Below are positions 6,475 to 48,734 of a stretch of 64,000 bases of DNA, in pieces (position 1 is the first letter of the stretch; every line of letters starts with the position of its first letter). The stretch is taken from assembly GCF_041146795.1 (NCBI RefSeq), contig NC_135170.1:19462033-19526032 (forward strand). Direction: 5' to 3'. A program made the position numbers and the translations under genes. The notes under the pieces were generated by a model. It worked only from the letters and a program-made list of their open reading frames with translations, ran no database searches and was not told the origin of the DNA. This DNA is from Maylandia zebra (lineage: Eukaryota; Chordata; Actinopteri; Cichliformes; Cichlidae).

Positions 6475-8085
6475 TTAATCATTTTCATCAGGCAGAGGAC
6501 TTTCATCCACATGACTGGCTGAGGCGCTCATGCTGCCAATCCCCGAGGTGACATCAGAGTTTCCAGCTCTGGTCTTCAGCCATTCAGACACTTTGGCACG
6601 TGCTCTTTGATTAAAAAGTTCTGACATGTTCCCGAACTCGGAGGGAACGTCTCCGCACACTGAAACAGAAATTGAATGCTATTTGATATCATACCCACAA
6701 GTAAAAATATAAAACAAATTCAGAGTTTTCTCTAATTAATATCAACTCACTGCTTGGAATGAAAACTCCATCCAAGCTGGCTCCTCGCTTCACAAATGGT
6801 TGTTTTGGTTCTTCTGGTTCATTTACAACAGCTCTCAACATTCGGTCTATCAGCTCTTGCTCCCTCCTGTTCCACTCTTCTTCTGTCAGCACAGGCTGTT
6901 TTTTCCCTTGTTTGCTTTCAGCAGTGAAGCATTGTTCCTTGTTCCGTGTAATCAAATCAATTATTTTTTGGAAGAGCAGTTTGACAGGAAAATGATAACC
7001 CAAACTATGGCAGTTGAGGACATGATATCTGTACCCACACTTTTCCACCAGCCACTGGAGGCTTTTCCCCTCTCCTGCAATGTGCTCCTCAATGAGTCTG
7101 TCATTCAGCCAGTCTCCCCAGGTGAACAACACCATGCAATGTCTCCACACTCTCTCTCCAAAGGGCATCAAAAGCTCAACCAGTGCTTTGTGGTCTTCCT
7201 CTGTGAATGCTTTGGAAATGGGAACAACCAAGAGAAAAACATGAGGGCCTGGAGCGCACATGGAGACGCTGCGGAGAACTTCTTCTTTTAGCCAGACAGG
7301 AGCCGTCGTGTCTGCAGGCCAGCCTGGAGTCTCAACGACTGCAACATTTATTCCACCTAAATTTCCTTCATGCTTTACACACTTTTCTGTTCTTCTCTGG
7401 TCCTCGAATTCCTGCACAATTTTTTTTTTATTTAACAATTGTTACAGATCTGATAAATTAAATTAAATCTTATCCTTTCTATATCACATTTCAATTCAGG
7501 CAGCATATTGGGTTACCTTTTTCAACAAACTTCTCTCAAATATTGTTTTGAAAAAGATTTTGTTTCCTGCCATACTCTTCCCAGATTCCTCTCTGCCAAG
7601 CAGTACAATCCTCAGGTCAGTGATTTTCAGCCTCTCTCCTGTAAAAAAGTAAAGTTTAAACTGAAAGAGTGACTAAAATAATGCCATAATTATTTGATGA
7701 TTTTTTGATTACCTTCAAATAACTTTCCCAGTATTCTTGATTGTCTTTCAGTGGTCTTTCTGATCCTTCTAGCTAATTTTCCTTCTGCCTCTTTTCTGGC
7801 CTCCAGCTGTGCTTCACGATCCGGATCAACTTCATAATGTGAGTTTTCATTTCCTGCCCACATCTCTTCAATCTTCTCCAGGAGATCTTGTACCTGCATC
7901 TCATCATTATCCTTCATGTTGTCCAGGACGTGGTACCTGTTCCCACACTGCTTCATCAGCCACTGCAGACCTTCCTCACTCTCTATACGTTCTTCCACAG
8001 TCTTCACTCCCAGCCAATCACCTCTAGTGAACAGAACAATGGTGTGCTTCCAGACATCATCCCTAAACAGACTCATGTGCTCCTG
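6475..8085 (-). CDS. GIMAP8-like GTPase, 3' portion: end of AIG1 domain 2, AIG1 domain 3 and C-terminus
   Basis: Minus-strand coding exons: 7713-8085 (second half of AIG1 domain 2, cut at 8085 by the inserted element), 7517-7638, 6751-7411 and 6475-6659 (stop at 6475-6477). Domain 2 shows HTIVLFTRGDWLG (G4-like RGDW), MKQCGNRYHVLDN and a charged helical tail. Domain 3 shows LRIVLLGREESGKS (P-loop), VVETPGW (G3), PGPHVFLLVVP, FTWGDWLNDRL and EKCGYRYHVLN. The terminal exon is polar and acidic, with no transmembrane helix. GIMAPs are septin-like GTPases of lymphocyte survival and vesicle membranes. Borders and phases agree across all exons. A minus-strand AATAAA near 6180-6187 probably ends the transcript. 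The other half of this gene is at 20611-25436. Confidence 0.85.
8080..8085. repeat. Target-site duplication, left copy (CTCCTG)
   Basis: Six bases directly before the element, identical to the six directly after it (20611-20616). They lie inside the GIMAP AIG1 domain 2 exon. Confidence 0.9.
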
Positions 8086-8331
8086 AGTAGTAATACGATG
8101 GCACCTATCCAATATGGCGGCCAACCGGTTTCGTGCGTGTGCGCATGCGCGTTCAGTAATACGATGGCACCTATCCAAGATGGCGGCCAACCAAACCGGT
8201 TTGAGAACCGGTTTGACCGGTTTCGTGCGTGTGCGCATGCGCGTTCAGTAATTCGATGGCACTAGTCCAAGATGGCGGCCAACCAAACCGATTTGACCAG
8301 TTTCGTGTGTGTGTGCGCATGCGTGTTCAGG
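8086..8331 (+). repeat. Three terminal tandem units with YY1- and NRF1-like motifs (left end)
   Basis: The units start at 8086 (AGTAGTAATACGATGG), 8155 (AGTAATACGATGGCACC) and 8247 (AGTAATTCGATGGCACT), about 69-92 bp each. Each holds an ATGGCGGCCAACC block and a TGCGCATGCG block. AAGATGGCGGC (units 2 and 3) is the YY1 consensus, and TGCGCATGCGC (units 1 and 2) is the NRF1 consensus. An ACCGGTTT/AAACCGGT palindromic motif separates them. Binding is inference only. Confidence 0.8.
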
Positions 8332-8493
8332 TGTGGAAATACCACAGGGTATCAGAGGGGTTATATGAGTTTATGTGTTTTTAACGGGGTTTTAATTTAA
8401 TCAAACCATAGGGTTTTTAATTAAACTATTTTTTCACTTAGGTGTATCGCAACATTCAGTTATGCATGTGTTCTTAAAAGCAATTCTTTGTTT

Positions 8494-10279
8494 CTTGTTT
8501 CATTCTTGGCGGAGTGGAAGCTGTTTTGGTTCACAGTGCGCCTTAACAAAGAGGGTGTGCTCTAGTCAAAAGTGTTGGTAATAGTGTTTTAATCACACTA
8601 ATTTTCTAAATCTGACAATGTCTCAGCTTGCAGTGAGGCATGCATTTTATTTTATAAATGGCACAAATGGGAATTTCTTCTGAATGGGTGATGTCAGCAT
8701 GTTCACAAGCGTTTCATTTAATCAAACCCCTAGTTTTAATTTAACTAGTTTTTACACATCTACTGGGGTTTCTTTCCAGGGTTGATGCGATCATTTTATT
8801 TAAAAATCGGGATTTCGGAATGTTGAACTAAGAGTGAGACAAAACCAGCCAGCTAGTTTTTAACACAGTAAATGTTACAAATAGCATTCAGTCCTTTAGA
8901 AAATAAATGCTATAAGCAGCCAGTATCGCTCTTTTCATCAGCCCTTTAGAAAATAAACGCTACAGTGATACTTCTAAAACCAGTCGCCCAGACCCGCTCC
9001 AACTTTTCAACAGCTGGCTAATTGTTTGAATTTGTTCAGGATTGTAAAAGCCCACCGCTGGGTATCACTTAGTTGTTGAGAGCACCATGCGAACAAGGGC
9101 CCAGCCTATTGTTTAAAGTGGCCAGTATTGGCTCTTTTTGTAATTCCTCGACAAGGTAAATGGGGCAGTTGGTACCAGTCGGGTGGCGACCCCGCCTATT
9201 GTCTGAAGTATCGGCTCCTTTGTAATTCCTTGAGAAGACAAAAGCCCTGTAGGGTCTCATTTAAATTGATTGGAGACATCTTGTTTCATTCTTGGCGGAG
9301 TGGAAGCTGTTTTGGTTCACAGTGCGCCTTAACAAAGAGGGTGTGCTCTAGTCAAAAGTGTTGGTAATAGTGTTTTAATCACACTAATTTTCTAAATCTG
9401 ACAATGTCTCAGCTTGCGGTGAGGCATGCATTTTATTTTATAAACGGCACAAATGGGAATTTCTTCTGAATGGGTGATGTCAGCATGTTCACAAGCGTTT
9501 CATTTAATCAAACCCCTAGTTTTAATTTAACTAGTTTTTACACATCTACTGGGGTTTCTTTCCAGGGTTGATGCGATCATTTTATTTAAAAACGGATCAA
9601 ACGGGCCATTTCTTCTGTAAGGGGTTTCATGGTTTCAGAGTAGTTTTTAACACAACAGATAGTCGCAAATAACATTCAGCCCTTTAGAAAATAAACGCTA
9701 CAGTGATACTTCTAAAACACGCTGCACACAATGTCACCTTTTCCCCCAAAGCAGCCAGTATCGCTCTTTTCAAACTAATCGTCTTTTAAATACACTCATT
9801 TTGTGATTCTGGTGTCACACCATGCACCGATGCAAGCATTTTATTTATTTAAAAACGGATCAAACGGGCCATTTCTTCTGTAAGTGGTTTCATGGTTTCA
9901 GAGTAGTTTTTAACACAACAGATAGTCGCAAATAACATTCAGCCCTTTAGAAAATAAACGCTACAGTGATACTTCTAAAACCAGTCGCCCAGACCCGCTC
10001 CAACTTTTCAACAGCTGGCTAATTGTTTGAATTTGTTCAGGATTGTAAAAGCCCACCGCTGGGTATCACTTAGTTGTTGAGAGCACCATGCGAACAAGGG
10101 CCCAGCCTATTGTTTAAAGTGGCCAGTATTGGCTCTTTTTGTAATTCCTCGACAAGGTAAATGGGGCAGTTGGTACCAGTCGGGTGGCGACCCCGCCTAT
10201 TGTCTGAAGTATCGGCTCCTTTGTAATTCCTTGAGAAGACAAAAGCCCTGTAGGGCCTCATTTAAATTGATTGGAGACA
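8494..10279 (+). repeat. Duplicated subterminal blocks in the left arm
   Basis: Two long direct repeats interleave. 8494-8806 recurs at 9280-9592 (offset 786), and 8939-9278 recurs at 9940-10279 (offset 1,001). A shorter block around 9588-9720 recurs at about 9851-9976. No credible gene lies here; the short 63-79-codon frames appear twice only because the DNA is duplicated. The mirror set is at 18417-20202. Confidence 0.8.
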
Positions 10280-10306
10280 TACCTTTCTTTTTGGAAACAC
10301 CCACCC

Positions 10307-10316
10307 TATATAAAAA
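10307..10316 (+). promoter_or_regulatory. TATA-box-like promoter of the element, left arm
   Basis: TATATAAAAA lies about 110 bp before the first ATG-containing block and upstream of the leftward-to-centre reading genes. GT and AG splice-like borders between 10435 and 11050 suggest a short spliced leader region. The mirror copy is at 18380-18389. Confidence 0.45.
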
Positions 10317-11033
10317 ACACGCTCAGAGCCCGATACCCTGAGCCATTTACGCCTCAAGATTCGCTGCAGAGCACACCATTTTCTTTGCGATCATCAACAC
10401 TAACATCGTTCTTTATAACATGGACATCGTAAACGGTAAGTAAAACAAAACCTATTATTGGATTTTTAAAAAGTGTTATGTTAACATATTATAGGATATT
10501 CAAACTATCTTTTTTTCCTAAAACAAAAGCTTAATTTTTAGGAGTTCGGGAGAACGGCCCAGGACCCTTTTCTTTAGAAACGGGCGCTTTTACAGCTGGA
10601 ACTAGTTCTCTAACAGGCACAAGGTGTGTACAGCATTACTGGATTTTTAAACGTATGTATGTTTTAAACTAGCGATTGTTTTAAATTATGTAATAACGTT
10701 TTTGTTTGTTCCAGGGTTAACAAACTGAGCAGGAAAACATTCAGACACCGCTACCACAGAGCCCTACCTTACATCAGGTGTGTATACAACGGGATGTATA
10801 GTTGTGTATTTTTTTTTTTTTAAAGGGGTTTAAACAATTACAAATGTTCTAAACTGACCGTTTTACACCTACAGAGCCACGCCAGAGAACCGGGTGTGTG
10901 GAGAAGCAGGACCATCCCGAATAACGCACACTACAAGGTAAGCATAGGCATATATAAATTAGATAAAAAGAGATAGAGAGGGAGACACGCTTATTCAGTT
11001 TGAAATGGGTACATGTATAATATGTTTTAACAC

Positions 11034-11594
11034 ATGTCTATCTATCTTCACAGACTGCAGAACAGCACCCCTCCTCATAATGATCAGGACACCATACGAT
11101 TCCAGACGTTTTTGGAATGTTTAAGCAGTATCGACCTCCCAGAACAACAAAAACCTGGAGCTTTGTGCAACAGTGGAGAGTCAGAACCGATCTTCATCAG
11201 CGAACCTGCAACACCCCCGAGTGAGTGGCTACCTCGCGATTTCTCTGATGTTTTTGAGTACAGCATGTCAGATTTTGATCTAGTTCATATACCCACCACC
11301 CCAGAATGTGTCAGAAATAGCGTTGATTCACACATAGATTTCGAAGAAGACGGCATAACAGACTCTCAAATATCAGCGGCGTATGATGCTTACATAAAGC
11401 TTCCAGACGCTCAGCCTGCTGAACAAAGTCATATAGCTTCAATAGCTTCAATAGCTGATAAATTATGTTTGATTGAAGCTAGACTCAATCAATACCACCA
11501 AGAAGCACAGGTACAAAGGCAACAGTTTACCAAACTCATAAACAAAGTGTGTAGTACATTAGACAACATCTGCAGCAAAATTTCAAGTCCCTGA
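11034..11594 (+). pseudogene. Polinton-associated protein of unknown function, left-arm copy
   Basis: This 186-codon frame ends 17 bp before the polymerase frame on the same strand. It is acidic, with a Glu/Asp-rich middle (FEEDGITDSQI) and a C-terminal stretch of likely helix, with no recognised domain. Its start may be formed by splicing from upstream blocks. I cannot name a function. It is part of a fossil element. Confidence 0.5.
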
Positions 11595-11611
11595 CTTTTA
11601 AAATCCAGACC

Positions 11612-14344
11612 ATGGACCCTCCAAATAAATTATTTAAACATAATAACGGAACCTCCACTCCTGTTAGATGTTTTGACTTAGAGACTTTTATGCAGTGGGC
11701 TGAAGAAACAGATAAAAAATTAGACGATATTATAGCTAGACTTAATAGGGTGCCTGCATCAGCCTCATCCGATACACATCCTTGTCAGACTGTTCCTACG
11801 TCTGCTATTGCTGATGGGGCTATTGTTGCTAATAATAGTGATAGTACAGCTGGTGTTGCTCGGGCCGTTGCTGTTACTGATGCTAACCATATAGCTTGTG
11901 CTGCTGGTGATTTTGCGTCTGATGCACAATCTAGCCGGGTCACCTCTGCTGCAGCTACTGCAGTTGTTATTGAGCCCGTTGTGCAGTCTGGGTCCGGCAG
12001 CCGCTCTCAGTCACACATTAGAGAGATACCTAATTTTAATGCTCGCGAATTGCGTGAACGCCTTGATTTTAGGGGTATAAGTCTCGATCATCCAGAACAA
12101 GTGCCGGCGCGAGTGCGCGAGTGCTTAGCCAATGTGATAGACAGAGCTGTGGCGGGATCCCAACAGGGCAGTGTTCTAAACGTGGTCCTGCGTGGCCCCT
12201 CGCTGGCTTCAGATGTTCAGGCTGTTTTAAACGCTGATGATCGGTATGATCCGGAGCTGTTTCTCGATCAAATTGCACAAGTTATGCAGAGTAATGATGA
12301 ATCTATCGGTGATGATGAATTAGAGTTTATTGTCACGGTAGCTCAGAACAGTAGTGGCGGGTCTCGCTTAAGACTGGCGCACATACCTTATGATGAGATT
12401 CTCTCAAAGAAAGGCAGACATTTATACACACCAAACAACACAAACAACAATTTGTGCTTCTCCCTATGCATAGCACATTCATTAAACTCATCATCCTCTG
12501 AGCATGAAAAACTTGCTACAGCTAAACAGATGCATGCTGAAGTAGGTCTATGCGACACACAGCAAGTATCATTCTCTGATGTCGGTAAATTTGAGAAGCA
12601 CTTCAACATTAAGATTGTAATCTATTACCACACAGAAGGGCGTAAACGCCTGGAATGTTTTTACACACATGAAGAGCCAAACCCTAACACGTTGATGATG
12701 TATCTCCATAATCAACATTACCACCTGATTTTAAACCCGACCGCTTTTTTGGGGGGATCCTATGTGTGTAATTTCTGTTACAGTATATATAATACACCAT
12801 TACAGCACAGCTGTAAACATAGATGTAACACATGTTACACACTCTGTCAACATCACAGGGGACCCACAGTGAAATGCAGCGACTGTAACCGCATCTGCAA
12901 ATCACAACACTGTTACCAACAACACAAATTACCTGAATTAAAACACAACATGATCCCCTGTGATAATATGAAACATTGCATGCACTGTGGCACCACATAT
13001 AGAGAATCCAAGAAATTGCCACACAAATGTGCGCAGCCTAGATGCGAGCACTGCCGCGAACCTAAATTAGCAGGAGACTCCGACCATCAGTGTTTCATAC
13101 AGCCTGTTGAAAAACAGAAGCCTAACGATAAATACATTTTATATGATTTTGAGACGCGGTACCACAACGGTAAACACGAGGCTAACTTTGTGTGTGCGTC
13201 TGATCTGAAGGGCAATAAGTTCACATTTAATACATTAAAGTGTGTGGAGGCGTTTGTGCAGCATTACAGACGCCCAAGGTTTCGTGGGTACACTTTCATA
13301 GCACATAATGCATCTGGCTTTGATAACTACATACTCCTCGAGTACTTTGTCAGACAGAGCATAACACCTAGTGTCATAATGAGCGGCAGCCGTGTGATTT
13401 TAATGCATGACAGGGACTATGACCAGCGGTGGATTGATTCGTTCAGCTTTTTGCCCATGGGCCTTGCCAAAATACCCTCTGCTTTAGGTTTTCAAGACCT
13501 GCAGAAGGGCCATTTCCCACACAGGTTTAATACGAGGGATAATGAGCGTTATGTGGGCCCGTACCCAGACCCCTCCTTCTACGGCTATGAGCACATGTCT
13601 GAAAGCGATAAGGTGCGATTCATGGAATGGTACCAGGTTGCCTCACAGAATCCCTTTGATTTTCAGGCTGAACTCAGGCGTTACTGTGTTAACGATGTTG
13701 ATGTCCTGCGTAAAGCATGCATCATTTATCGTGACACGCTACTGGGTTGTACTCAAGTTGATCCATTCATGTATACCACCCTGGCTGCATTTAGTATGGG
13801 TGTGTATAAAACGCTGTTTCTGCCTAGAGACGCGCTCGCTCTCACGTATGAAGGGGCATACGTTGAGCAGAACAAGACGTTTTCTAACGTCTCTATTGAA
13901 TGGCTTCAATATGTGTCCCACACCACCAACAAAGTGGTAAAACATGCTCTCAGAGGAGGCGAACAGAGGGTTGGACCGTATTTTGTGGACGGTTTTGACC
14001 CCACAAGTAATACAGCTTATGAATTTGCAGGATGTTTTCACCACGGTTGTGTTAAATGCTACCCCGAGAGTGAAGTTAATCCTGTCAGCAAAGCATCCTA
14101 TGGACTGCTGCATCGCATGTTTTGTGACAAAGTTGATGCACTGAGATCACAACACAGTGTGAGCGTAATAGTGATGTGGGAGTGTGAATGGGCTGCCTTG
14201 AAGCAGACAGACCCTGCAGTTATGGCTTTCATGCATACGTACAGAAAGCCAGAACGCCTGAATCCCCGAGACGCCCTTTTTGGCGGTCGCACAAATGCTC
14301 TAAAGCTGTACCACAAGACTGCACTGTGGGATAGAGACTGGTGA
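11612..14344 (+). pseudogene. Protein-primed family-B DNA polymerase fragment, left-arm copy
   Basis: The long frame shows, in order, a low-complexity Ala/Ser/Val-rich head, a conserved Polinton-type N-terminal block, a cysteine/histidine-rich zinc-binding region (about residues 390-510), and the 3'-5' exonuclease region with YDFET, AHNASGFDN and YCVNDVDV motifs. It runs into the centre of the palindrome, where the family's palm domain would begin. It is an incomplete relic of the replicase of a Polinton. DNA_pol_B_2 membership is inferred from these motifs. Confidence 0.8.
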
Positions 14345-17084
14345 AGTCGTAGTAAAATATTTTTTCATCACAAGCAGTCTTGTGGTACAGCTTTAGAGCA
14401 TTTGTGCGACCGCCAAAAAGGGCGTCTCGGGGATTCAGGCGTTCTGGCTTTCTGTACGTATGCATGAAAGCCATAACTGCAGGGTCTGTCTGCTTCAAGG
14501 CAGCCCATTCACACTCCCACATCACTATTACGCTCACACTGTGTTGTGATCTCAGTGCATCAACTTTGTCACAAAACATGCGATGCAGCAGTCCATAGGA
14601 TGCTTTGCTGACAGGATTAACTTCACTCTCGGGGTAGCATTTAACACAACCGTGGTGAAAACATCCTGCAAATTCATAAGCTGTATTACTTGTGGGGTCA
14701 AAACCGTCCACAAAATACGGTCCAACCCTCTGTTCGCCTCCTCTGAGAGCATGTTTTACCACTTTGTTGGTGGTGTGGGACACATATTGAAGCCATTCAA
14801 TAGAGACGTTAGAAAACGTCTTGTTCTGCTCAACGTATGCCCCTTCATACGTGAGAGCGAGCGCGTCTCTAGGCAGAAACAGCGTTTTATACACACCCAT
14901 ACTAAATGCAGCCAGGGTGGTATACATGAATGGATCAACTTGAGTACAACCCAGTAGCGTGTCACGATAAATGATGCATGCTTTACGCAGGACATCAACA
15001 TCGTTAACACAGTAACGCCTGAGTTCAGCCTGAAAATCAAAGGGATTCTGTGAGGCAACCTGGTACCATTCCATGAATCGCACCTTATCGCTTTCAGACA
15101 TGTGCTCATAGCCGTAGAAGGAGGGGTCTGGGTACGGGCCCACATAACGCTCATTATCCCTCGTATTAAACCTGTGTGGGAAATGGCCCTTCTGCAGGTC
15201 TTGAAAACCTAAAGCAGAGGGTATTTTGGCAAGGCCCATGGGCAAAAAGCTGAACGAATCAATCCACCGCTGGTCATAGTCCCTGTCATGCATTAAAATC
15301 ACACGGCTGCCGCTCATTATGACACTAGGTGTTATGCTCTGTCTGACAAAGTACTCGAGGAGTATGTAGTTATCAAAGCCAGATGCATTATGTGCTATGA
15401 AAGTGTACCCACGAAACCTTGGGCGTCTGTAATGCTGCACAAACGCCTCCACACACTTTAATGTATTAAATGTGAACTTATTGCCCTTCAGATCAGACGC
15501 ACACACAAAGTTAGCCTCGTGTTTACCGTTGTGGTACCGCGTCTCAAAATCATATAAAATGTATTTATCGTTAGGCTTCTGTTTTTCAACAGGCTGTATG
15601 AAACACTGATGGTCGGAGTCTCCTGCTAATTTAGGTTCGCGGCAGTGCTCGCATCTAGGCTGCGCACATTTGTGTGGCAATTTCTTGGATTCTCTATATG
15701 TGGTGCCACAGTGCATGCAATGTTTCATATTATCACAGGGGATCATGTTGTGTTTTAATTCAGGTAATTTGTGTTGTTGGTAACAGTGTTGTGATTTGCA
15801 GATGCGGTTACAGTCGCTGCATTTCACTGTGGGTCCCCTGTGATGTTGACAGAGTGTGTAACATGTGTTACATCTATGTTTACAGCTGTGCTGTAATGGT
15901 GTATTATATATACTGTAACAGAAATTACACACATAGGATCCCCCCAAAAAAGCGGTCGGGTTTAAAATCAGGTGGTAATGTTGATTATGGAGATACATCA
16001 TCAACGTGTTAGGGTTTGGCTCTTCATGTGTGTAAAAACATTCCAGGCGTTTACGCCCTTCTGTGTGGTAATAGATTACAATCTTAATGTTGAAGTGCTT
16101 CTCAAATTTACCGACATCAGAGAATGATACTTGCTGTGTGTCGCATAGACCTACTTCAGCATGCATCTGTTTAGCTGTAGCAAGTTTTTCATGCTCAGAG
16201 GATGATGAGTTTAATGAATGTGCTATGCATAGGGAGAAGCACAAATTGTTGTTTGTGTTGTTTGGTGTGTATAAATGTCTGCCTTTCTTTGAGAGAATCT
16301 CATCATAAGGTATGTGCGCCAGTCTTAAGCGAGACCCGCCACTACTGTTCTGAGCTACCGTGACAATAAACTCTAATTCATCATCACCGATAGATTCATC
16401 ATTACTCTGCATAACTTGTGCAATTTGATCGAGAAACAGCTCCGGATCATACCGATCATCAGCGTTTAAAACAGCCTGAACATCTGAAGCCAGCGAGGGG
16501 CCACGCAGGACCACGTTTAGAACACTGCCCTGTTGGGATCCCGCCACAGCTCTGTCTATCACATTGGCTAAGCACTCGCGCACTCGCGCCGGCACTTGTT
16601 CTGGATGATCGAGACTTATACCCCTAAAATCAAGGCGTTCACGCAATTCGCGAGCATTAAAATTAGGTATCTCTCTAATGTGTGACTGAGAGCGGCTGCC
16701 GGACCCAGACTGCACAACGGGCTCAATAACAACTGCAGTAGCTGCAGCAGAGGTGACCCGGCTAGATTGTGCATCAGACGCAAAATCACCAGCAGCACAA
16801 GCTATATGGTTAGCATCAGTAACAGCAACGGCCCGAGCAACACCAGCTGTACTATCACTATTATTAGCAACAATAGCCCCATCAGCAATAGCAGACGTAG
16901 GAACAGTCTGACAAGGATGTGTATCGGATGAGGCTGATGCAGGCACCCTATTAAGTCTAGCTATAATATCGTCTAATTTTTTATCTGTTTCTTCAGCCCA
17001 CTGCATAAAAGTCTCTAAGTCAAAACATCTAACAGGAGTGGAGGTTCCGTTATTATGTTTAAATAATTTATTTGGAGGGTCCAT
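14229..17084 (-). pseudogene. Protein-primed family-B DNA polymerase fragment, right-arm copy
   Basis: Mirror copy of the left-arm frame, reading toward the centre. It crosses the 51-bp spacer and there shows YYDFTSLYP, the palm motif A typical of family-B polymerases, before entering the opposite arm. It is also incomplete. This short stretch confirms that the gene is a polymerase and not just an exonuclease. Confidence 0.8.
14323..14373. other. 51-bp unique centre of the palindrome
   Basis: This is the only single-copy DNA in the element, bounded by GCAGTC-type mirrored ends (14311-14322 against 14374-14385). It codes for the start of the polymerase palm on the minus strand. It would be the loop of a fold-back molecule. 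Confidence 0.85.
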
Positions 17085-17101
17085 GGTCTGGATTTTAAAA
17101 G

Positions 17102-17662
17102 TCAGGGACTTGAAATTTTGCTGCAGATGTTGTCTAATGTACTACACACTTTGTTTATGAGTTTGGTAAACTGTTGCCTTTGTACCTGTGCTTCTTGGTG
17201 GTATTGATTGAGTCTAGCTTCAATCAAACATAATTTATCAGCTATTGAAGCTATTGAAGCTATATGACTTTGTTCAGCAGGCTGAGCGTCTGGAAGCTTT
17301 ATGTAAGCATCATACGCCGCTGATATTTGAGAGTCTGTTATGCCGTCTTCTTCGAAATCTATGTGTGAATCAACGCTATTTCTGACACATTCTGGGGTGG
17401 TGGGTATATGAACTAGATCAAAATCTGACATGCTGTACTCAAAAACATCAGAGAAATCGCGAGGTAGCCACTCACTCGGGGGTGTTGCAGGTTCGCTGAT
17501 GAAGATCGGTTCTGACTCTCCACTGTTGCACAAAGCTCCAGGTTTTTGTTGTTCTGGGAGGTCGATACTGCTTAAACATTCCAAAAACGTCTGGAATCGT
17601 ATGGTGTCCTGATCATTATGAGGAGGGGTGCTGTTCTGCAGTCTGTGAAGATAGATAGACAT
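17102..17662 (-). pseudogene. Polinton-associated protein of unknown function, right-arm copy
   Basis: Mirror copy of 11034-11594 with the same translation. Confidence 0.5.
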
Positions 17663-20364
17663 GTGTTAAAACATATTATACATGTACCCATTTCAAACTG
17701 AATAAGCGTGTCTCCCTCTCTATCTCTTTTTATCTAATTTATATATGCCTATGCTTACCTTGTAGTGTGCGTTATTCGGGATGGTCCTGCTTCTCCACAC
17801 ACCCGGTTCTCTGGCGTGGCTCTGTAGGTGTAAAACGGTCAGTTTAGAACATTTGTAATTGTTTAAACCCCTTTAAAAAAAAAAAAATACACAACTATAC
17901 ATCCCGTTGTATACACACCTGATGTAAGGTAGGGCTCTGTGGTAGCGGTGTCTGAATGTTTTCCTGCTCAGTTTGTTAACCCTGGAACAAACAAAAACGT
18001 TATTACATAATTTAAAACAATCGCTAGTTTAAAACATACATACGTTTAAAAATCCAGTAATGCTGTACACACCTTGTGCCTGTTAGAGAACTAGTTCCAG
18101 CTGTAAAAGCGCCCGTTTCTAAAGAAAAGGGTCCTGGGCCGTTCTCCCGAACTCCTAAAAATTAAGCTTTTGTTTTAGGAAAAAAAGATAGTTTGAATAT
18201 CCTATAATATGTTAACATAACACTTTTTAAAAATCCAATAATAGGTTTTGTTTTACTTACCGTTTACGATGTCCATGTTATAAAGAACGATGTTAGTGTT
18301 GATGATCGCAAAGAAAATGGTGTGCTCTGCAGCGAATCTTGAGGCGTAAATGGCTCAGGGTATCGGGCTCTGAGCGTGTTTTTTATATAGGGTGGGTGTT
18401 TCCAAAAAGAAAGGTATGTCTCCAATCAATTTAAATGAGGCCCTACAGGGCTTTTGTCTTCTCAAGGAATTACAAAGGAGCCGATACTTCAGACAATAGG
18501 CGGGGTCGCCACCCGACTGGTACCAACTGCCCCATTTACCTTGTCGAGGAATTACAAAAAGAGCCAATACTGGCCACTTTAAACAATAGGCTGGGCCCTT
18601 GTTCGCATGGTGCTCTCAACAACTAAGTGATACCCAGCGGTGGGCTTTTACAATCCTGAACAAATTCAAACAATTAGCCAGCTGTTGAAAAGTTGGAGCG
18701 GGTCTGGGCGACTGGTTTTAGAAGTATCACTGTAGCGTTTATTTTCTAAAGGGCTGAATGTTATTTGCGACTATCTGTTGTGTTAAAAACTACTCTGAAA
18801 CCATGAAACCACTTACAGAAGAAATGGCCCGTTTGATCCGTTTTTAAATAAATAAAATGCTTGCATCGGTGCATGGTGTGACACCAGAATCACAAAATGA
18901 GTGTATTTAAAAGACGATTAGTTTGAAAAGAGCGATACTGGCTGCTTTGGGGGAAAAGGTGACATTGTGTGCAGCGTGTTTTAGAAGTATCACTGTAGCG
19001 TTTATTTTCTAAAGGGCTGAATGTTATTTGCGACTATCTGTTGTGTTAAAAACTACTCTGAAACCATGAAACCCCTTACAGAAGAAATGGCCCGTTTGAT
19101 CCGTTTTTAAATAAAATGATCGCATCAACCCTGGAAAGAAACCCCAGTAGATGTGTAAAAACTAGTTAAATTAAAACTAGGGGTTTGATTAAATGAAACG
19201 CTTGTGAACATGCTGACATCACCCATTCAGAAGAAATTCCCATTTGTGCCGTTTATAAAATAAAATGCATGCCTCACCGCAAGCTGAGACATTGTCAGAT
19301 TTAGAAAATTAGTGTGATTAAAACACTATTACCAACACTTTTGACTAGAGCACACCCTCTTTGTTAAGGCGCACTGTGAACCAAAACAGCTTCCACTCCG
19401 CCAAGAATGAAACAAGATGTCTCCAATCAATTTAAATGAGACCCTACAGGGCTTTTGTCTTCTCAAGGAATTACAAAGGAGCCGATACTTCAGACAATAG
19501 GCGGGGTCGCCACCCGACTGGTACCAACTGCCCCATTTACCTTGTCGAGGAATTACAAAAAGAGCCAATACTGGCCACTTTAAACAATAGGCTGGGCCCT
19601 TGTTCGCATGGTGCTCTCAACAACTAAGTGATACCCAGCGGTGGGCTTTTACAATCCTGAACAAATTCAAACAATTAGCCAGCTGTTGAAAAGTTGGAGC
19701 GGGTCTGGGCGACTGGTTTTAGAAGTATCACTGTAGCGTTTATTTTCTAAAGGGCTGATGAAAAGAGCGATACTGGCTGCTTATAGCATTTATTTTCTAA
19801 AGGACTGAATGCTATTTGTAACATTTACTGTGTTAAAAACTAGCTGGCTGGTTTTGTCTCACTCTTAGTTCAACATTCCGAAATCCCGATTTTTAAATAA
19901 AATGATCGCATCAACCCTGGAAAGAAACCCCAGTAGATGTGTAAAAACTAGTTAAATTAAAACTAGGGGTTTGATTAAATGAAACGCTTGTGAACATGCT
20001 GACATCACCCATTCAGAAGAAATTCCCATTTGTGCCATTTATAAAATAAAATGCATGCCTCACTGCAAGCTGAGACATTGTCAGATTTAGAAAATTAGTG
20101 TGATTAAAACACTATTACCAACACTTTTGACTAGAGCACACCCTCTTTGTTAAGGCGCACTGTGAACCAAAACAGCTTCCACTCCGCCAAGAATGAAACA
20201 AGAAACAAAGAATTGCTTTTAAGAACACATGCATAACTGAATGTTGCGATACACCTAAGTGAAAAAATAGTTTAATTAAAAACCCTATGGTTTGATTAAA
20301 TTAAAACCCCGTTAAAAACACATAAACTCATATAACCCCTCTGATACCCTGTGGTATTTCCACA

Positions 20365-20610
20365 CCTGAACACGCATGCGCACACACACACGAAACTGGT
20401 CAAATCGGTTTGGTTGGCCGCCATCTTGGACTAGTGCCATCGAATTACTGAACGCGCATGCGCACACGCACGAAACCGGTCAAACCGGTTCTCAAACCGG
20501 TTTGGTTGGCCGCCATCTTGGATAGGTGCCATCGTATTACTGAACGCGCATGCGCACACGCACGAAACCGGTTGGCCGCCATATTGGATAGGTGCCATCG
20601 TATTACTACT
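20365..20610 (-). repeat. Three terminal tandem units with YY1- and NRF1-like motifs (right end)
   Basis: Mirror of 8086-8331, with the same unit order read from the outer end and the same motifs. Confidence 0.8.
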
Positions 20611-20616
20611 CTCCTG
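20611..20616. repeat. Target-site duplication, right copy (CTCCTG)
   Basis: Identical partner of 8080-8085. Its length of six matches Polinton integration. Confidence 0.9.
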
Positions 20617-21013
20617 GACTGCTCTATGATAGGATGTATTAAATGCAGATGCCAGGCCTACCACGAGGAGCACTGCGTGGGGTCCTGGAGTGCACATGTA
20701 CACACTGTTCTCTATTTCATGTTTATCTGTCTCAGAGGTGTCCTGAAGGGTGTGGTTGTAGAACCAGCCAGGAGAATCCACCACTGCGAGTGTCCTTTCT
20801 CCCAGAATGCCGTGATTAATTTCACAGGACATCGTTGTTCTTCTGTGATGAACAGCAAAAGCCTTTTTCCTCAGAATGGTGTTTCCAGCCGAGCTCTTAG
20901 CTGACCACTGAGCACCAACCATCACTAGTCTTAAATGTGCTGGTGGGGTTTTACCACCTGCAGAAGCAAAACTAATCAAGAATCAGGCATATAGTTTTAA
21001 TGCATTCAAATCA

Positions 21014-44000: not shown

Positions 44001-47000
44001 GTTTTTGTTTTTGCTTTACTTCAGGAAATAGTCACATGGTACAACGCGATTCGAGCCGCTCGCTATGCGTACTTGAAGACGGCCTACCCGACAGGAAGCG
44101 ATGAAGAAGTAAGTGTCAAACTATTTCATTTTAAGCCAGCTGTATGTCAGTTTTTAGCTTGTATATTTTAGTATTTGACATGTTTACTGTCTTGTGTCTT
44201 CATCAGCTGTTACCAATGATAACAAGAAACTACCTCAAAGAGGGTTACATGGAAAAGACGGGGCCTATGGTGAGCTCACTGAAGTCACTCGAGCGTCATT
44301 TGCACGCCTATATTATTTCTCTTTTACTTTGATTTTTACTCACACTCACCAGCAAACTTGTTTGTGACTACATTATGTGTGATCAGTACATCTGAATGTG
44401 TTTCTGTTCCTCTTTTAGACTCTGACTCACATGTGCGTGCAGCTCGAATCTTTTTTCTTTTTTAAGAATCAGTTTGTGCGATAGGAGGTTTTGAGGAAAT
44501 GAAGTCTGATGAGCACATTTTTCAAATGCACATTTTATTTTTGAAATCAAATGCTTTTTATTTTATTTTGTACGCAGCAAACAGAGTCATTCAAAAGGAG
44601 GTGGTTCATTTTAGACTCTCAAAACAGGAAGTTGCTCTACTTCAAAGGCCATCTGGTGAGGACACTACCTCTTTTTTCCATCTCACTCTAACCCCACACT
44701 GTACACCTATGAAGTATGTGAGTCACGTGCTTTTTCTTGTTGTAGGATGCAGAGGAGCTAGGGGCCATTTTTATCGGCACAGAGTGCAAAGGTTACTCGG
44801 TTAGGGAGTGTGTCCCGCTGAACGCCCGGGGAAACAAGTGGAAGTGCGGATTGATGGTGGAAACGCCCGAGCGACAGTTCGTCTTCATGTGCGAGCAGGA
44901 GAGGGACCAGAGGGAGTGGCTGGAAGCGCTCAGGAAGGTTTTGTCCAGACCCATGTCACCCCAGGATTATACCAGTAAGCAAGACTTCAGTGTGCTTTAA
45001 ATATGCTGGTGCCCAATTTTCCATATTATTTTTCTTTGTATTCAAAGGAAAACTTGAACTCCATTAACTAAATACCGTACATGGCCACTATTTAATCCTC
45101 CACAGGCACAACCCATAACCATCACCCCATTTTACAGAAACGTTTGGACACTGTGGAAATTATCAGTAAAAGCAGAATGACATATTTTGCACAAATTTAA
45201 AATCTTATCTCTTATCTATGATGTTGAAACTGGGAAAATGTGTTGGGTTTTGCTCATTTTGAATTTAATGGCAGGAGCACATTTTAAAAAAAAGTTGGGC
45301 GAGGGGGATTAAATAACTTGAAAAAGTTGTGTAATGCTGTAAAACAAACATCTGATGGAGAGTGATGACAGTAAATAGTTTAAAATACTATTTATTGTCT
45401 ATTTAATCCATTACTGACCATTTAATCCAGGGGTGGGCAACTCCAGGCCTCGAGGGCCGGAGTCCTGCAGGTTTTAGATCTCACCTTGGGTCAACACACC
45501 TGAATCACATGATTAGTTCATTACCAGGCCTCTGGAGAACTTCAGGACATTTTGAGGAGCTAATTTAGCCATTTAAAATCAGCTGTGTTGGTTCAAGGAC
45601 ACATCTAAAACCTGCAGGACACTGGCCCTCGAGGCCTGGAATTGCACACCGCTGATTTAATCCATCATTGGGATTGTTTCCAGTCCCTATAAGGCAGGGG
45701 TGGACAACTCCAGGCCTCGAGGGCCAGTGTGGCTGAAAACCTATATTGCATGACCATTATCTTTAGGTCCAGTCATGATTCTGGTCGCGCTTTATGGTTT
45801 TCTCACTGCTGCGCACAAAAATGCAATTTTGCCTTTTTCCTTTTAGATTAGATTAGATAGAACTTTATTAATCCCTCGGGTGGGTTCCTCTGGGAAATTC
45901 GATTTCCAAAAAAGCACAGCAACGACACAAGTTACAGAGTTATACACACACACACATATATAAATACAGAGACAATATAAATAAAATATACGAAGGGGAT
46001 AAATAGAATAAATAGGAATAAAAATAAAAATACAAGTGAATTGCACATTTCAAGTATTGAGTCTATTGCACCGTTGACTATTTACAAAAAGTATTGCACA
46101 AAAGGTATTGCACAGTGAGGTGAAGAGGCACTACAGCTTGCTTGTTCCTCCCTCCTTTGTCCTCCTGTTTCCTCTCCCCTCCAGAGAGGAGTTAAACAGT
46201 CTGATGGTGTGTGGGACAAAGGAGTTTTTAAGTCTGTTAGTTCTTGTCTTGGGGAGAAGCAACCTGTCACTGAACAGACTCTTCTGATTGTTTATGGCCG
46301 TGTGCAGAGGATGCCTGGCATTGTCCATAATGTCAATCAGTTTCTTTAATGTCCTTTTCTCTGCCACTGTCACCAGAGTGTCCAGCTTCATGCCGACCAC
46401 AGAGCTAGCCCTCCTGATCAGTTTCTCCAGCCTGGATGAGTCCTTCTTTGCTGTGCTGCTCCCCCAGCACACCACAGCATAGAAAAGTACTCCAGCAACC
46501 ACCGACTGGTAAAACATCCTCAGGAGCTTCCTGCAGATGTTAAAAGACCTCAGCCTCCTGAGGAAGTACAGTCGGCTTTGGGCTTTTTTATACAGGTGCT
46601 CTGTGCTGCATGACCAGTCCAGTTTATTGTCCACCCACAGCCCGAGGTACTTGTACTTGTTGACCACCTCCACCTCCTCCCCCTCTATCTGAACCGGCAG
46701 TGGACCTTCTCTGGACCTCCCGAAGTCCACAACCAGTTCCTTAGTCTTTGAGGTGTTGAGTTGCAGGTGGTTTGTGTGACTCCATGCGACAAAGTTCCTC
46801 ACCAGACTTCTGTACTCCTCTTCCTGATCATCCCAGATACACCCCATGATGGCTGTGTCGTTGTAGCGGCTCCCCAAGTTCAGCAGCACACGCCTTTAGC
46901 ATCCTAGGACACACCTTGTCTGGGCCTGCTGCCTTTCTGGGGCGAAGCTTCCTCAGTTGTCTCCTGACCTGATCCACTGTGACACTGGGAGATGTTTGGG

Positions 47001-48734
47001 AAGAGGGGAGGGGGGGAGATGTCTTGCTGCTGAGAGAGGGATTGGAGGAGGGGGGTGTCATGGTGTCAGGAAGGGGGGGAAGCGAGGGAGGTAGGAGAGT
47101 GGGGATTGGACTCTGTAGTGAAGGTGAGGGTGGGGGGGTTGTGGGCTGGTCAAACCTGTTGAAGAAGTTGTTGAGTTCGTTTGCCTTCTCCACAGTCCCC
47201 CCCACTGTGCTTTTCTTGGTGTTGTGGCCTGTGATGGTTTTCACACCATTCCAGACCTCCCTCATATTGTTCCTCTCCAACTTCTGCTCCACCTTCCTCC
47301 TGTAGGTGTCCTTTGCTTCCCTCAGGCAGCGTTTCACCTCCCGCTGTGCTGCTTTCATCTCCTCCTTCACTTTGCTCCTGAAAGCCTTCTTCTTCATGTT
47401 GAGGACAGCTTTGACTTCCTGTGTTACCCACGGTTTGTTATTAGGATAACACCGTACCGTCTTAGCAGGGGCGACTGTGTCCACACAAAAGTTGTACTTT
47501 GTGAAGAAAAAAAATTTTATACTTCAGGAACATTGCCACCTTCTCTGGACCTTAGTTTTTTAAGGCATCACTCACCCAGGCCTAGAGACCGATTGGCCAA
47601 CCAATGGTCACTAGGGAAAAATGTGTATCCCCTCCCTGATTGGCGAGTAGTTGCTAGGTGACACACTCACAATGAAGGATCTGCACTAAAAATCTCTTCA
47701 TGATTGTTCTGGTTGCTAGCACATGGACTTGCAGGGATGACATTTTGTTTGATAAGTGTTGCTAACTACTGGCTGAGCTGCAGTGAAACTTAAAAAAGTG
47801 CAACACAAACTGGAAATGGAGAACTTTCACTTTCAAAAATTCCAGCTTTACTGCTTCAACCAGTTCCATTACAGTAGTGCAACCTTTACTCTGAAGGTGA
47901 AGGGTCTCCGTTCAAAAGCTTGCATCTCTGTTGGTATGGAGGCACATCAGTGTCCATGGAATTGGTAGCTTGCGCATCTAGAAAGGCAGCATTAATGCTG
48001 AAAATACATACAGGTTTTAGAGCAGGGGTGGGGGAACTCCAGGCCTAAATGGCCAGTGTCCTGCAGGCTTTAGATATCACCCTGGTCAACACACCTGACC
48101 ACCCTTGAGGCCTGGACTTCCCCCACCCCTGTTTTAGTGCAACACATGCTCCCATCCAGTATGCTAAACCACATACTGCTCAGTTTAAAGATTCATTATC
48201 TATTGTGTTCTACTGTGAATAAAATATGTGTTTAAGTTGATATTTCCAAATCATTTGAATCTGTTTTTATTTATATTTCACACAGCACACTCCCATCTAC
48301 TTTTTTAACTAGGGTTATATTTGGTTTCAATGAAGGAACCTTGACATGTATTTACTTAAGATATAGTGTGCAGCAGCAAGACACATGCTGTCTGTAGCTG
48401 TTTCTGTCTGTCCGAGAAGAGGCAGAGAGAAAAAAAGCATCTTGTGTTATCACAGTTACAGTATGTATTTTTGGCCTTGTTTAGCACATTCAGATATGGT
48501 GTTGGTACGTTTTTAGGTAATATTTTAAGCCCTTAGTTGGCATGCTTATCCTTTAAATGTAGCTCGTAACAGTGCAAAAGCAAAGTGCCTCAAGCAATCT
48601 GGCCTCCCTGCTACAGCTTTAATATACATATGTAATCATTTATAGAAAGCTGTAGTAGCTGATCGTTAGTGTGTTAAGCTCTAATGATATTCTTTCTCAT
48701 TCCAGCTGAAGCCGTCATGAAGTATAAGCGATGA
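41064..48734 (+). CDS. adap2: ArfGAP with dual PH domains 2 (centaurin alpha 2), 11 coding exons
   Basis: Exons: 41064-41151, 41616-41740, 41845-41936, 42178-42266, 42503-42615, 43765-43914, 44025-44108, 44207-44269, 44578-44655, 44746-44974, 48706-48734. These total 1,140 nt, or 379 aa (human ADAP2 381). The protein binds PtdIns(3,4,5)P3 at the membrane and stimulates GTP hydrolysis by Arf6. Seen: ArfGAP zinc finger CADC...CLNC (CX2CX16CX2C) with the arginine-finger region GIHRSL (about residues 21-55), EQWIRAKYERKEF, PH1 from about 128 (GFYEGILLKKGKDNTQFLKR), KAVISIKDLNATFQ, RNYLKEGYMEKTGP, and PH2 (FKRRWFILDSQNRKLLYF to REWLEAL). MANRERNKK and the atad5/rhot1 neighbours favour ADAP2. The C-terminus RPMSPQDYTTEAV recalls ADAP1 (RPMLPQEYAVEA), so the subfamily is slightly less sure than the family. 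Confidence 0.92.
42616..43764 (+). other. adap2 intron 5
   Basis: About 1.15 kb of ordinary intronic sequence. Several short frames occur, but none resembles a protein. Confidence 0.4.
45427..45655. mobile_element. hAT-type MITE with long inverted ends, copy 1 (adap2 intron 10)
   Basis: Left end CAGGGGTGGGCAACTCCAGG with CCTCGAGGGCC and CCTGCAGGTTTTAGAT; right end ATCTAAAACCTGCAGGAC with GGCCCTCGAGGCCTGGA. About 230 bp long and non-coding. The end motif and size fit a widespread fish hAT MITE. Confidence 0.75.
45696..45735. mobile_element. hAT-type MITE, copy 2, left end only
   Basis: CAGGGGTGGACAACTCCAGG followed by CCTCGAGGGCCAGTGT repeats the first 40 bp of the copy at 45427. The rest is missing. 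Confidence 0.65.
45846..47484 (-). mobile_element. Rex1/CR1-type LINE with internal loss
   Basis: Minus-strand frames: 46828-47484 covers the linker between endonuclease and reverse transcriptase (KPWVTQEVKAVLNMKKKAF, RKLRPRKAAGPDKVCPRML). 46131-46889 covers the RT C-terminal half ([56 protein letters not shown]). The central RT palm, including the first catalytic Asp region, is absent between them, so the copy is defective. The 3' tail on the minus strand is AATAAAGTTCTATCTAATCT, a short ATCTA repeat like the Rex1 tail at 3807. It lies antisense in adap2 intron 10. Confidence 0.75.
48022..48142. mobile_element. hAT-type MITE, copy 3, internally shortened
   Basis: CAGGGGTGGGGGAACTCCAG at the left and CCCCACCCCTG at the right, with the shared CCTGCAGG and CAACACACCTGA internal blocks. 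About 120 bp against about 230 in copy 1. Confidence 0.65.

Follow-up and report, generated by a model that had tools for sequence, protein, structure and literature searches.

A perfect Polinton-derived palindrome in the Maylandia zebra genome, probably born by snap-back of a replicating linear genome

A palindromic insertion in a GIMAP-type gene

We analyzed a 64,000-nucleotide stretch of the genome of the cichlid Maylandia zebra (positions 19,462,033 to 19,526,032 of contig NC_135170.1, assembly GCF_041146795.1; hereafter, the window), in which a palindromic insertion with the ends of a Polinton (Maverick) interrupts a GIMAP/AIG1-type coding region. A preliminary description of the window had reported AGT-starting inverted ends, a 6-bp target duplication and a near-perfect palindrome with two 6,237-bp arms around 51 unique bp. 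When positions whose coordinates sum to 28,696 were compared with each other, the region 8086-20610 was found to be a perfect palindrome of 12,525 bp. The 19 mismatching positions before its midpoint all fell within the centre and none within the arms (Table 1), so that the palindrome and its arms were confirmed, while the word "near" was not, as the arms are perfect. A perfect inverted repeat of 6.2 kb is far beyond chance. The symmetry was confined to the element, as the flanks compared as inverted copies were identical at 52 of 200 positions, and the window DNA is without any N. The termini of the element are AGTAGTAATACG and its reverse complement, which are of the AGTAGT/ACTACT type, and CTCCTG stands on both sides; the AGT/ACT-type termini and the 6-bp target-site duplication (TSD) by which a Polinton/Maverick is recognized were thus both present, as first described.

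The flanks of the element are two halves of one AIG1/GIMAP-type domain. Specifically, when the insert and one CTCCTG were removed, they joined as a single minus-strand open frame (..SAFNTSYHRAVQE-HMSLFRDDVWKHTIVLF..) whose parts match Pfam AIG1 positions 1-96 and 109-206, which supports the joins of the assembly to both flanks. That the flanks join the ends as assembled, a point on which the preliminary description had made its reading depend, is therefore supported.

Table 1. Positions of the features of the window element, and of related elements elsewhere in the host genome (last four rows, in coordinates of the host assembly).
Feature	Position	Strand	Remarks
Left arm	8086..14322	+	6,237 bp; polymerase-side end outermost; 0 mismatches to right arm
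Right arm	14374..20610	-	6,237 bp; exact reverse complement of left arm
Left TSD copy	8080..8085	.	CTCCTG, 6 bp
Right TSD copy	20611..20616	.	CTCCTG, 6 bp
Left terminal zone	8086..8334	+	249 bp; three tandem units, then polymerase-side sequence; counterpart of the parents' terminal repeat
Right terminal zone	20362..20610	-	249 bp; identical to left
51-bp centre (snap-back loop)	14323..14373	-	Polymerase coding sequence continuous with right arm; encodes ..DEKIFYYDFTSLYPT..
7-bp microhomology, primer side	14316..14322	-	GCAGTCT on minus strand; follows the loop in parents, then AAAAAAG
7-bp microhomology, template side	14374..14380	-	AGACTGC on minus strand
Left truncated family-B polymerase open reading frame (ORF)	11612..14344	+	Stop-to-stop frame 11555-14344; enters the centre, then stops
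Right polymerase ORF	14229..17084	-	Frame 14229-17141; crosses the centre to DFTSLYPTVQ, then antisense into left arm
Upstream ORF, 187 aa	11031..11594	+	No Pfam match; mirror copy 17102-17665, minus
3' part of interrupted GIMAP/AIG1-type frame	7690..8079	-	Pfam AIG1 positions 109-206, E 4.3e-17 (stretch 7690-8085)
5' part of interrupted GIMAP/AIG1-type frame	20617..20982	-	Pfam AIG1 positions 1-96, E 5.5e-18
C7 palindrome	45153974-45165152		11,179 bp; TSD GCTGTG; 5.5-kb arms; 103-nt loop
C24 palindrome	2132886-2139364		6,479 bp; TSD CTGGCC; 2.4-kb arms
C5 element	6249558-6263721		TSD CTCGCG; both ends read
C15 element	28054865-28068931		TSD CTCAGT; both ends read; ~1.4-kb terminal repeats

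Parent elements and the turn within the polymerase gene

Seven Polintons read at both ends in the host genome assembly (962 Mb, 63 contigs) were counted as parents; the far end was present in seven of ten far stretches, and the other three were left out. The parents are 14,739-15,730 bp long, start with AGTAGTAATA, and carry AGT/ACT-type termini with perfect 6-bp TSDs in all seven cases. Their integrase is open, stop-free and 100% identical in 7 of 7, and that of the nearest parent (C14) comes with a chromodomain (rve and chromo) and has foamy-virus integrases among its PDB matches. The right arm of the window element plus the centre differed from C14 at 4 of 6,226 positions without gaps, the outer 69 bp, which are missing from C14, being excluded. 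Against another copy, C19a, which is without part of the internal repeats, 0 of 4,442 positions differed in the inner part, and 5 mismatches and 12 gap bases were counted in 1,136 columns of the outer part. The closeness to C14 and the absence of differences between the arms (0 of 6,237) bear out the earlier view that the element is likely very young. If fish mutate at 3.5e-9 per generation, the absence of differences between the arms puts the age at no more than about 69,000 generations (95% upper bound), provided that gene conversion is not homogenizing the arms.

Integrase was detected neither in the window arms nor at the window's place in the genome, indicating that the element is a non-autonomous derivative and not an intact Polinton. 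In addition, a partial capsid-like ORF of C14 found nothing in the window arms, although it is a weak probe (the double jelly-roll-like match of C14 itself scored 18.8 bits, with a cut-off of 27). Inside the terminal repeat, the polymerase side of the parents differs from their integrase side, and the palindrome carries the polymerase side twice. Each arm also contains nested direct repeats of 342, 318 and 138 bp (8493-10280; mirror 18416-20203), whose arrangement differs among parent copies, C19a being ~1 kb shorter than C14.

The centre of the palindrome lies in a truncated polymerase gene, whose right copy matched the Pfam profile DNA_pol_B_2 (E 5.5e-25). On the minus strand, frame 14229-17141 passes from the right arm into the centre as uninterrupted polymerase sequence (..ACDEKIFYYDFTSLYPTVQ..), indicating that the 51 bp belong to the right arm and that the turn lies at their left edge. 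The remainder of the polymerase beyond DFTSLYPTVQ, which we take to be motif A, is absent from the element. Furthermore, the 51 bp are exactly present in C14, so that they are ordinary polymerase sequence and not unique, as had been stated.

We then searched the host genome with the centre (14280-14420) and scored all 16 candidates. The window alone matched over the full length of the query; the 15 other loci, eight of them at 100%, matched from query position 36-37 on, sharing the loop plus 7-8 bp and then diverging. No other locus sharing the centre as a palindrome, of the kind that the preliminary description had proposed to look for, was therefore found. In C14 and in the copies read at five of nine loci, the order is AGACTGC, the 51-nt loop, GCAGTCT and AAAAAAGACTATCC. 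In the palindrome, on the other hand, GCAGTCT is followed by what lies upstream of AGACTGC, in reverse complement. Since the palindrome departs from the parents at GCAGTCT, the turn uses a 7-bp inverted repeat that is present in the parent. Among 399,846 simulated random fold-back junctions in the parent, matches of at least 7 bases had a frequency of 0.0007; note that the parental polymerase gene is rich in such repeats, with 71 pairs having loops of 10-200 nt in 3.1 kb.

As side observations on this region, the two truncated polymerase frames (11612-14344 and 14229-17084) converge on the centre, and read-through transcripts could form a long hairpin RNA. In the upstream region 10420-11594, several tiny exon-like pieces with GT..AG borders seem by eye to precede the 187-aa ORF, which is odd beside the description of Mavericks as intronless in excerpts of PMC8097293. 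The polinton polymerase pPolB is described as carrying an N-terminal terminal-protein domain and a vOTU domain (excerpts of PMC11071308). A PDB sequence search with the window polymerase and scans with Rfam, tRNA and IMG/VR models and records gave nothing informative, and phage records gave two weak matches only (26-27% identity). Elsewhere in the window, a 242-bp imperfect inverted repeat (~74%) at 45420-45661, with a related piece at 48023-48098, is possibly a small hairpin transposon.

Other palindromes in the same genome

To find further palindromes, the host genome was searched with a polymerase-side subterminal query, and the best 40 of 52 candidates were scored. Seven of these 40 hits, the window included, form inverted pairs within about 22 kb, and five further inverted pairs were read in small stretches; the genome may hold more palindromes beyond the best 40. 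An integrase-side subterminal query (C14-type only) gave eight strong ends and no inverted pair. In total, 13 elements were read at both ends, and a TSD was found in 12 of them (the seven C14-type parents, C5, C15, the window element, C7 and C24). Three of these 12 are palindromes, namely the window element, C7 and C24, and the three have three different centres. The designation "MITE-like" (after miniature inverted-repeat transposable elements) is accordingly unsupported, as the centre of the window palindrome was found once only. No match to integrase was obtained in the tested pieces of the three palindromes, each of which keeps the end opposite the integrase; three are too few to call this a bias. 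Inverted identity of the flanks was 56/200 for C7, 49/200 for C24 and 45/200 for C15.

Aligned over most of their length (4,972 columns), the C7 arms show 5 mismatches and 8 gap bases. Its centre region is carried in one orientation by C5 and C15, so that the primer scar could be checked against two relatives: C7 reads ..AGCCG-TCAAACTTG-CAGCC.., whereas C5 and C15 read ..GGGGTGA-TCAAACTTG-CAGCC... The 9-nt primer TCAAACTTG, whose sequence equals that of C5 and C15, faces CAAGCTCGA on the other arm. In the inner 345 bp, the sole two mismatches between the arms fall in this primer, and both would be G·T pairs in a primer-template duplex. These wobble mismatches are the trace expected of a primer extended without repair. 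A 9-nt duplex allowing G·T pairs arose by chance at 0.0012 (299,966 trials).

The C24 arms differ by one gap in 2,165 columns. Judged against the C7 arm only, the turn of C24 lies at the 8-bp repeat GGACAGTT and encloses a loop of ~650 nt, and relative to that arm ~1.9 kb is lost from one arm, with a few filler bases. C24 may be an independent fold-back, or else a C7-type palindrome with two deletions, of which one spanned the centre at the 8-bp GGACAGTT; if it does descend from a C7-type palindrome, a palindrome moved as a palindrome.

Three further candidates were rejected. C5 and C15 have polymerase-type ends on both sides, but their halves differ, so that they are not palindromes. They form a second Polinton lineage, in which both ends carry polymerase-side sequence and each copy has its integrase frame split in two. 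C15b (C15:1281740-1290771), the thirteenth element, has diverged Polinton-type ends that mirror each other, but its flanks are inverted copies as well (199/200). It was rejected as an insertion-type palindrome: either the chromosome has an inverted duplication here or the assembly contains a palindrome, in contrast to the three insertion-type palindromes. We also observed an inverted pair of polymerase-side ends ~22 kb apart on C22 (18825514/18847326), and two direct-orientation pairs on C3 (56620703/56629774 and 60740936/60750484).

Origin of the palindrome and comparison with known systems

We consider, with a probability of roughly 0.75, that a replicating linear genome snapped back and so gave rise to the window insert, a non-autonomous Polinton derivative. 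The preliminary description had proposed a snap-back, and this proposal gained from three findings: parents exist in the same genome, the turn lies exactly at a 7-bp inverted microhomology, and two additional TSD-flanked palindromes have other centres. A single strand, nascent or displaced, would have started at the polymerase-side terminus and ended, with a free 3' end, within the polymerase gene. Its terminal 7 nt, GCAGTCT, would have paired with AGACTGC 51 nt upstream, the hairpin would have been extended back to the terminus, and re-replication from that end would have given a linear duplex with two identical ends, which the integrase of an intact relative would have inserted into the GIMAP-type gene with a 6-bp duplication. 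The free 3' end may have come from template switching or from resection of a broken linear molecule, and the sequence fits either. What the locus displays is a palindrome whose two termini are the same natural end and whose loop continues one of the arms, together with a TSD and a clean empty site. We infer that fold-back came first and insertion second, an order that fits the identical 249-bp ends, the recurrence in two or more independent cases and the failure to detect integrase.

Several points weigh against this interpretation. The exact parent was not found, and the first unit of the window terminal zone, an extra 66 bp, and its junction were matched in none of the other loci fetched. 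In the seven parents, the match to the window end stops after 10-27 bp at polymerase-side ends and after 21-27 bp at integrase-side ends, so that the source end of each window terminus is unreadable there. At base 28, the two window ends have a T; the C14-type family has T there in four of eight polymerase-side and none of seven integrase-side ends, and C15 and C5 have T at the left (integrase-side) ends and G at the other ends. The argument that the right window terminus cannot come from an integrase-side end is weakened by the early stop of the polymerase-side matches and by base 28, which somewhat lowers the probability of the snap-back interpretation and raises that of a rearrangement in place. 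Gene conversion could also have made the window ends alike. No other copy of the window palindrome was found, so that it may not have replicated as a palindrome, and in these data, which are a genome assembly, no extrachromosomal molecule was seen. Furthermore, C24 may be the deletion derivative mentioned above, the left and right terminal arrays are unequal in C7 (169 and 181 bp) and C24 (181 and 163 bp), and these arrays belong with those of C5 and C15, whose terminal repeats are of polymerase-side type and ~1.4 kb long.

Rearrangement in place, which we regard as unlikely, supposes that a full-length Polinton was inserted first and broke later; the resected strand would have folded back on the 7-bp repeat, been copied out as far as the polymerase-side end and undergone recombination with the integrase-side terminal repeat, the rest being deleted. 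Resected chromosome breaks also give fold-backs at short inverted repeats, and such an event retains the original TSD. The last step would find enough homology, as the two terminal repeats are alike over the outer 164 bp in C14, 111 bp in C19a and ~1.4 kb in C15; a crossover in the outer 164 or 111 bp would leave little trace, so that an event in a C14-like element ending in the shared outer 100-160 bp is hard to distinguish at the window alone. The parental repeats are 181-193 bp long at the polymerase-side end and 120-376 bp long at the integrase-side end (183 and 185 bp in C14, with a 2-bp gap as sole difference). They are never identical within one parent (7 of 7), whereas the window ends are identical over 249 bp, which is only suggestive because the true parent may have had other repeats. 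This two-step event would however have been needed at least twice (window and C7), and a third time should C24 be independent, always with a perfect TSD, and the candidate for a chromosomal inverted duplication, C15b, looks different, with its flanks inverted.

We give much less credence to an artefact of assembly or library, in which a fold-back chimeric read replaced a normal element in the contig. Fold-back chimeras with short microhomology are a familiar artefact of amplified or long-read libraries, our data are assembly sequence and not reads, and the arms show zero differences. However, a fold-back read would put the left flank on both sides, while two different flanks, a perfect TSD and a continuous host frame were found, with no N in the window; C7 is, moreover, an object of the same kind with arm differences, which are not expected from a read artefact. 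It is barely conceivable that the element is an ordinary Polinton of a family with giant terminal repeats and no rearrangement. Terminal repeats do reach 1,447 bp in intact vertebrate Mavericks (excerpts of PMC8097293) and ~1.4 kb in C15, but the window arms end inside the polymerase gene and the repeats of the nearest parent are far shorter.

Snap-back defective genomes are already known from adenovirus and yeast linear plasmids. They are also known from adeno-associated virus (AAV), as described in excerpts of PMC8235507. What looks new is their record as TSD-flanked Polinton insertions: a literature search, mostly of titles and abstracts and thus weak evidence of absence, gave no palindromic or snap-back Polinton among the matches listed. 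Vertebrate Polinton replication has so far been inferred mostly from their genes. In the fold-back inside the polymerase gene, and in the wobbles frozen in one arm of C7, the sequence records how the free 3' end of a single strand was elongated back to the terminus, which linear replication by strand displacement would lead one to expect. If insertion came after the fold-back, it takes no more than one end in two copies and an integrase from elsewhere, and snap-back predicts extrachromosomal snap-back molecules. Tentatively, and with more doubt than belief, we suggest that Polinton replication regularly gives rise to fold-back palindromes, and that these form a lasting class of satellites dependent on integrase. 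Such satellites would carry the replication end twice but no integrase and, within the limits of our tests, no capsid gene. As defective-interfering genomes they might outcompete the parent, and their inserted copies might be transcribed into hairpin or convergent RNAs that silence the parent family.

Among protein-primed systems, Daniell reportedly described in 1976 defective fold-back adenovirus genomes with a duplicated terminus that snap back on denaturation. Adenovirus shares with the window element a duplicated terminus and would share with it a linear genome replicated by protein priming, but its defective genomes are packaged as incomplete particles, without insertion by an integrase. 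The yeast linear plasmid pGKL1, also a protein-primed linear element, has hairpin and palindromic derivatives; unlike the window element, these are cytoplasmic plasmids that do not integrate. AAV replication is not protein-primed. According to excerpts of PMC8235507, AAV snapback genomes are, like the window element, self-complementary with one terminus duplicated, may be symmetric or asymmetric, and replicate with Rep and helper functions, template switching being proposed for non-unit genomes; they were read from virions, whereas the window element is a chromosomal insertion. Foldback/Galileo elements (PMC3573991) have long inverted terminal repeats as well, but Galileo is grouped with P elements on the basis of its transposase, and its long repeats are the ordinary state of the element and not a snap-back in a polymerase gene. 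Vertebrate Mavericks span 12.7-24.6 kb in excerpts of PMC8097293, a range into which the integrase-bearing parents (14.7-15.7 kb) fall. The window element differs from such Polintons in having no detected integrase, a cut polymerase, perfect 6.2-kb arms in place of a short terminal repeat, and polymerase-side sequence at both ends, and shares with them the AGTAGT..ACTACT ends, the 6-bp TSD and a polymerase matching the family-B profile.

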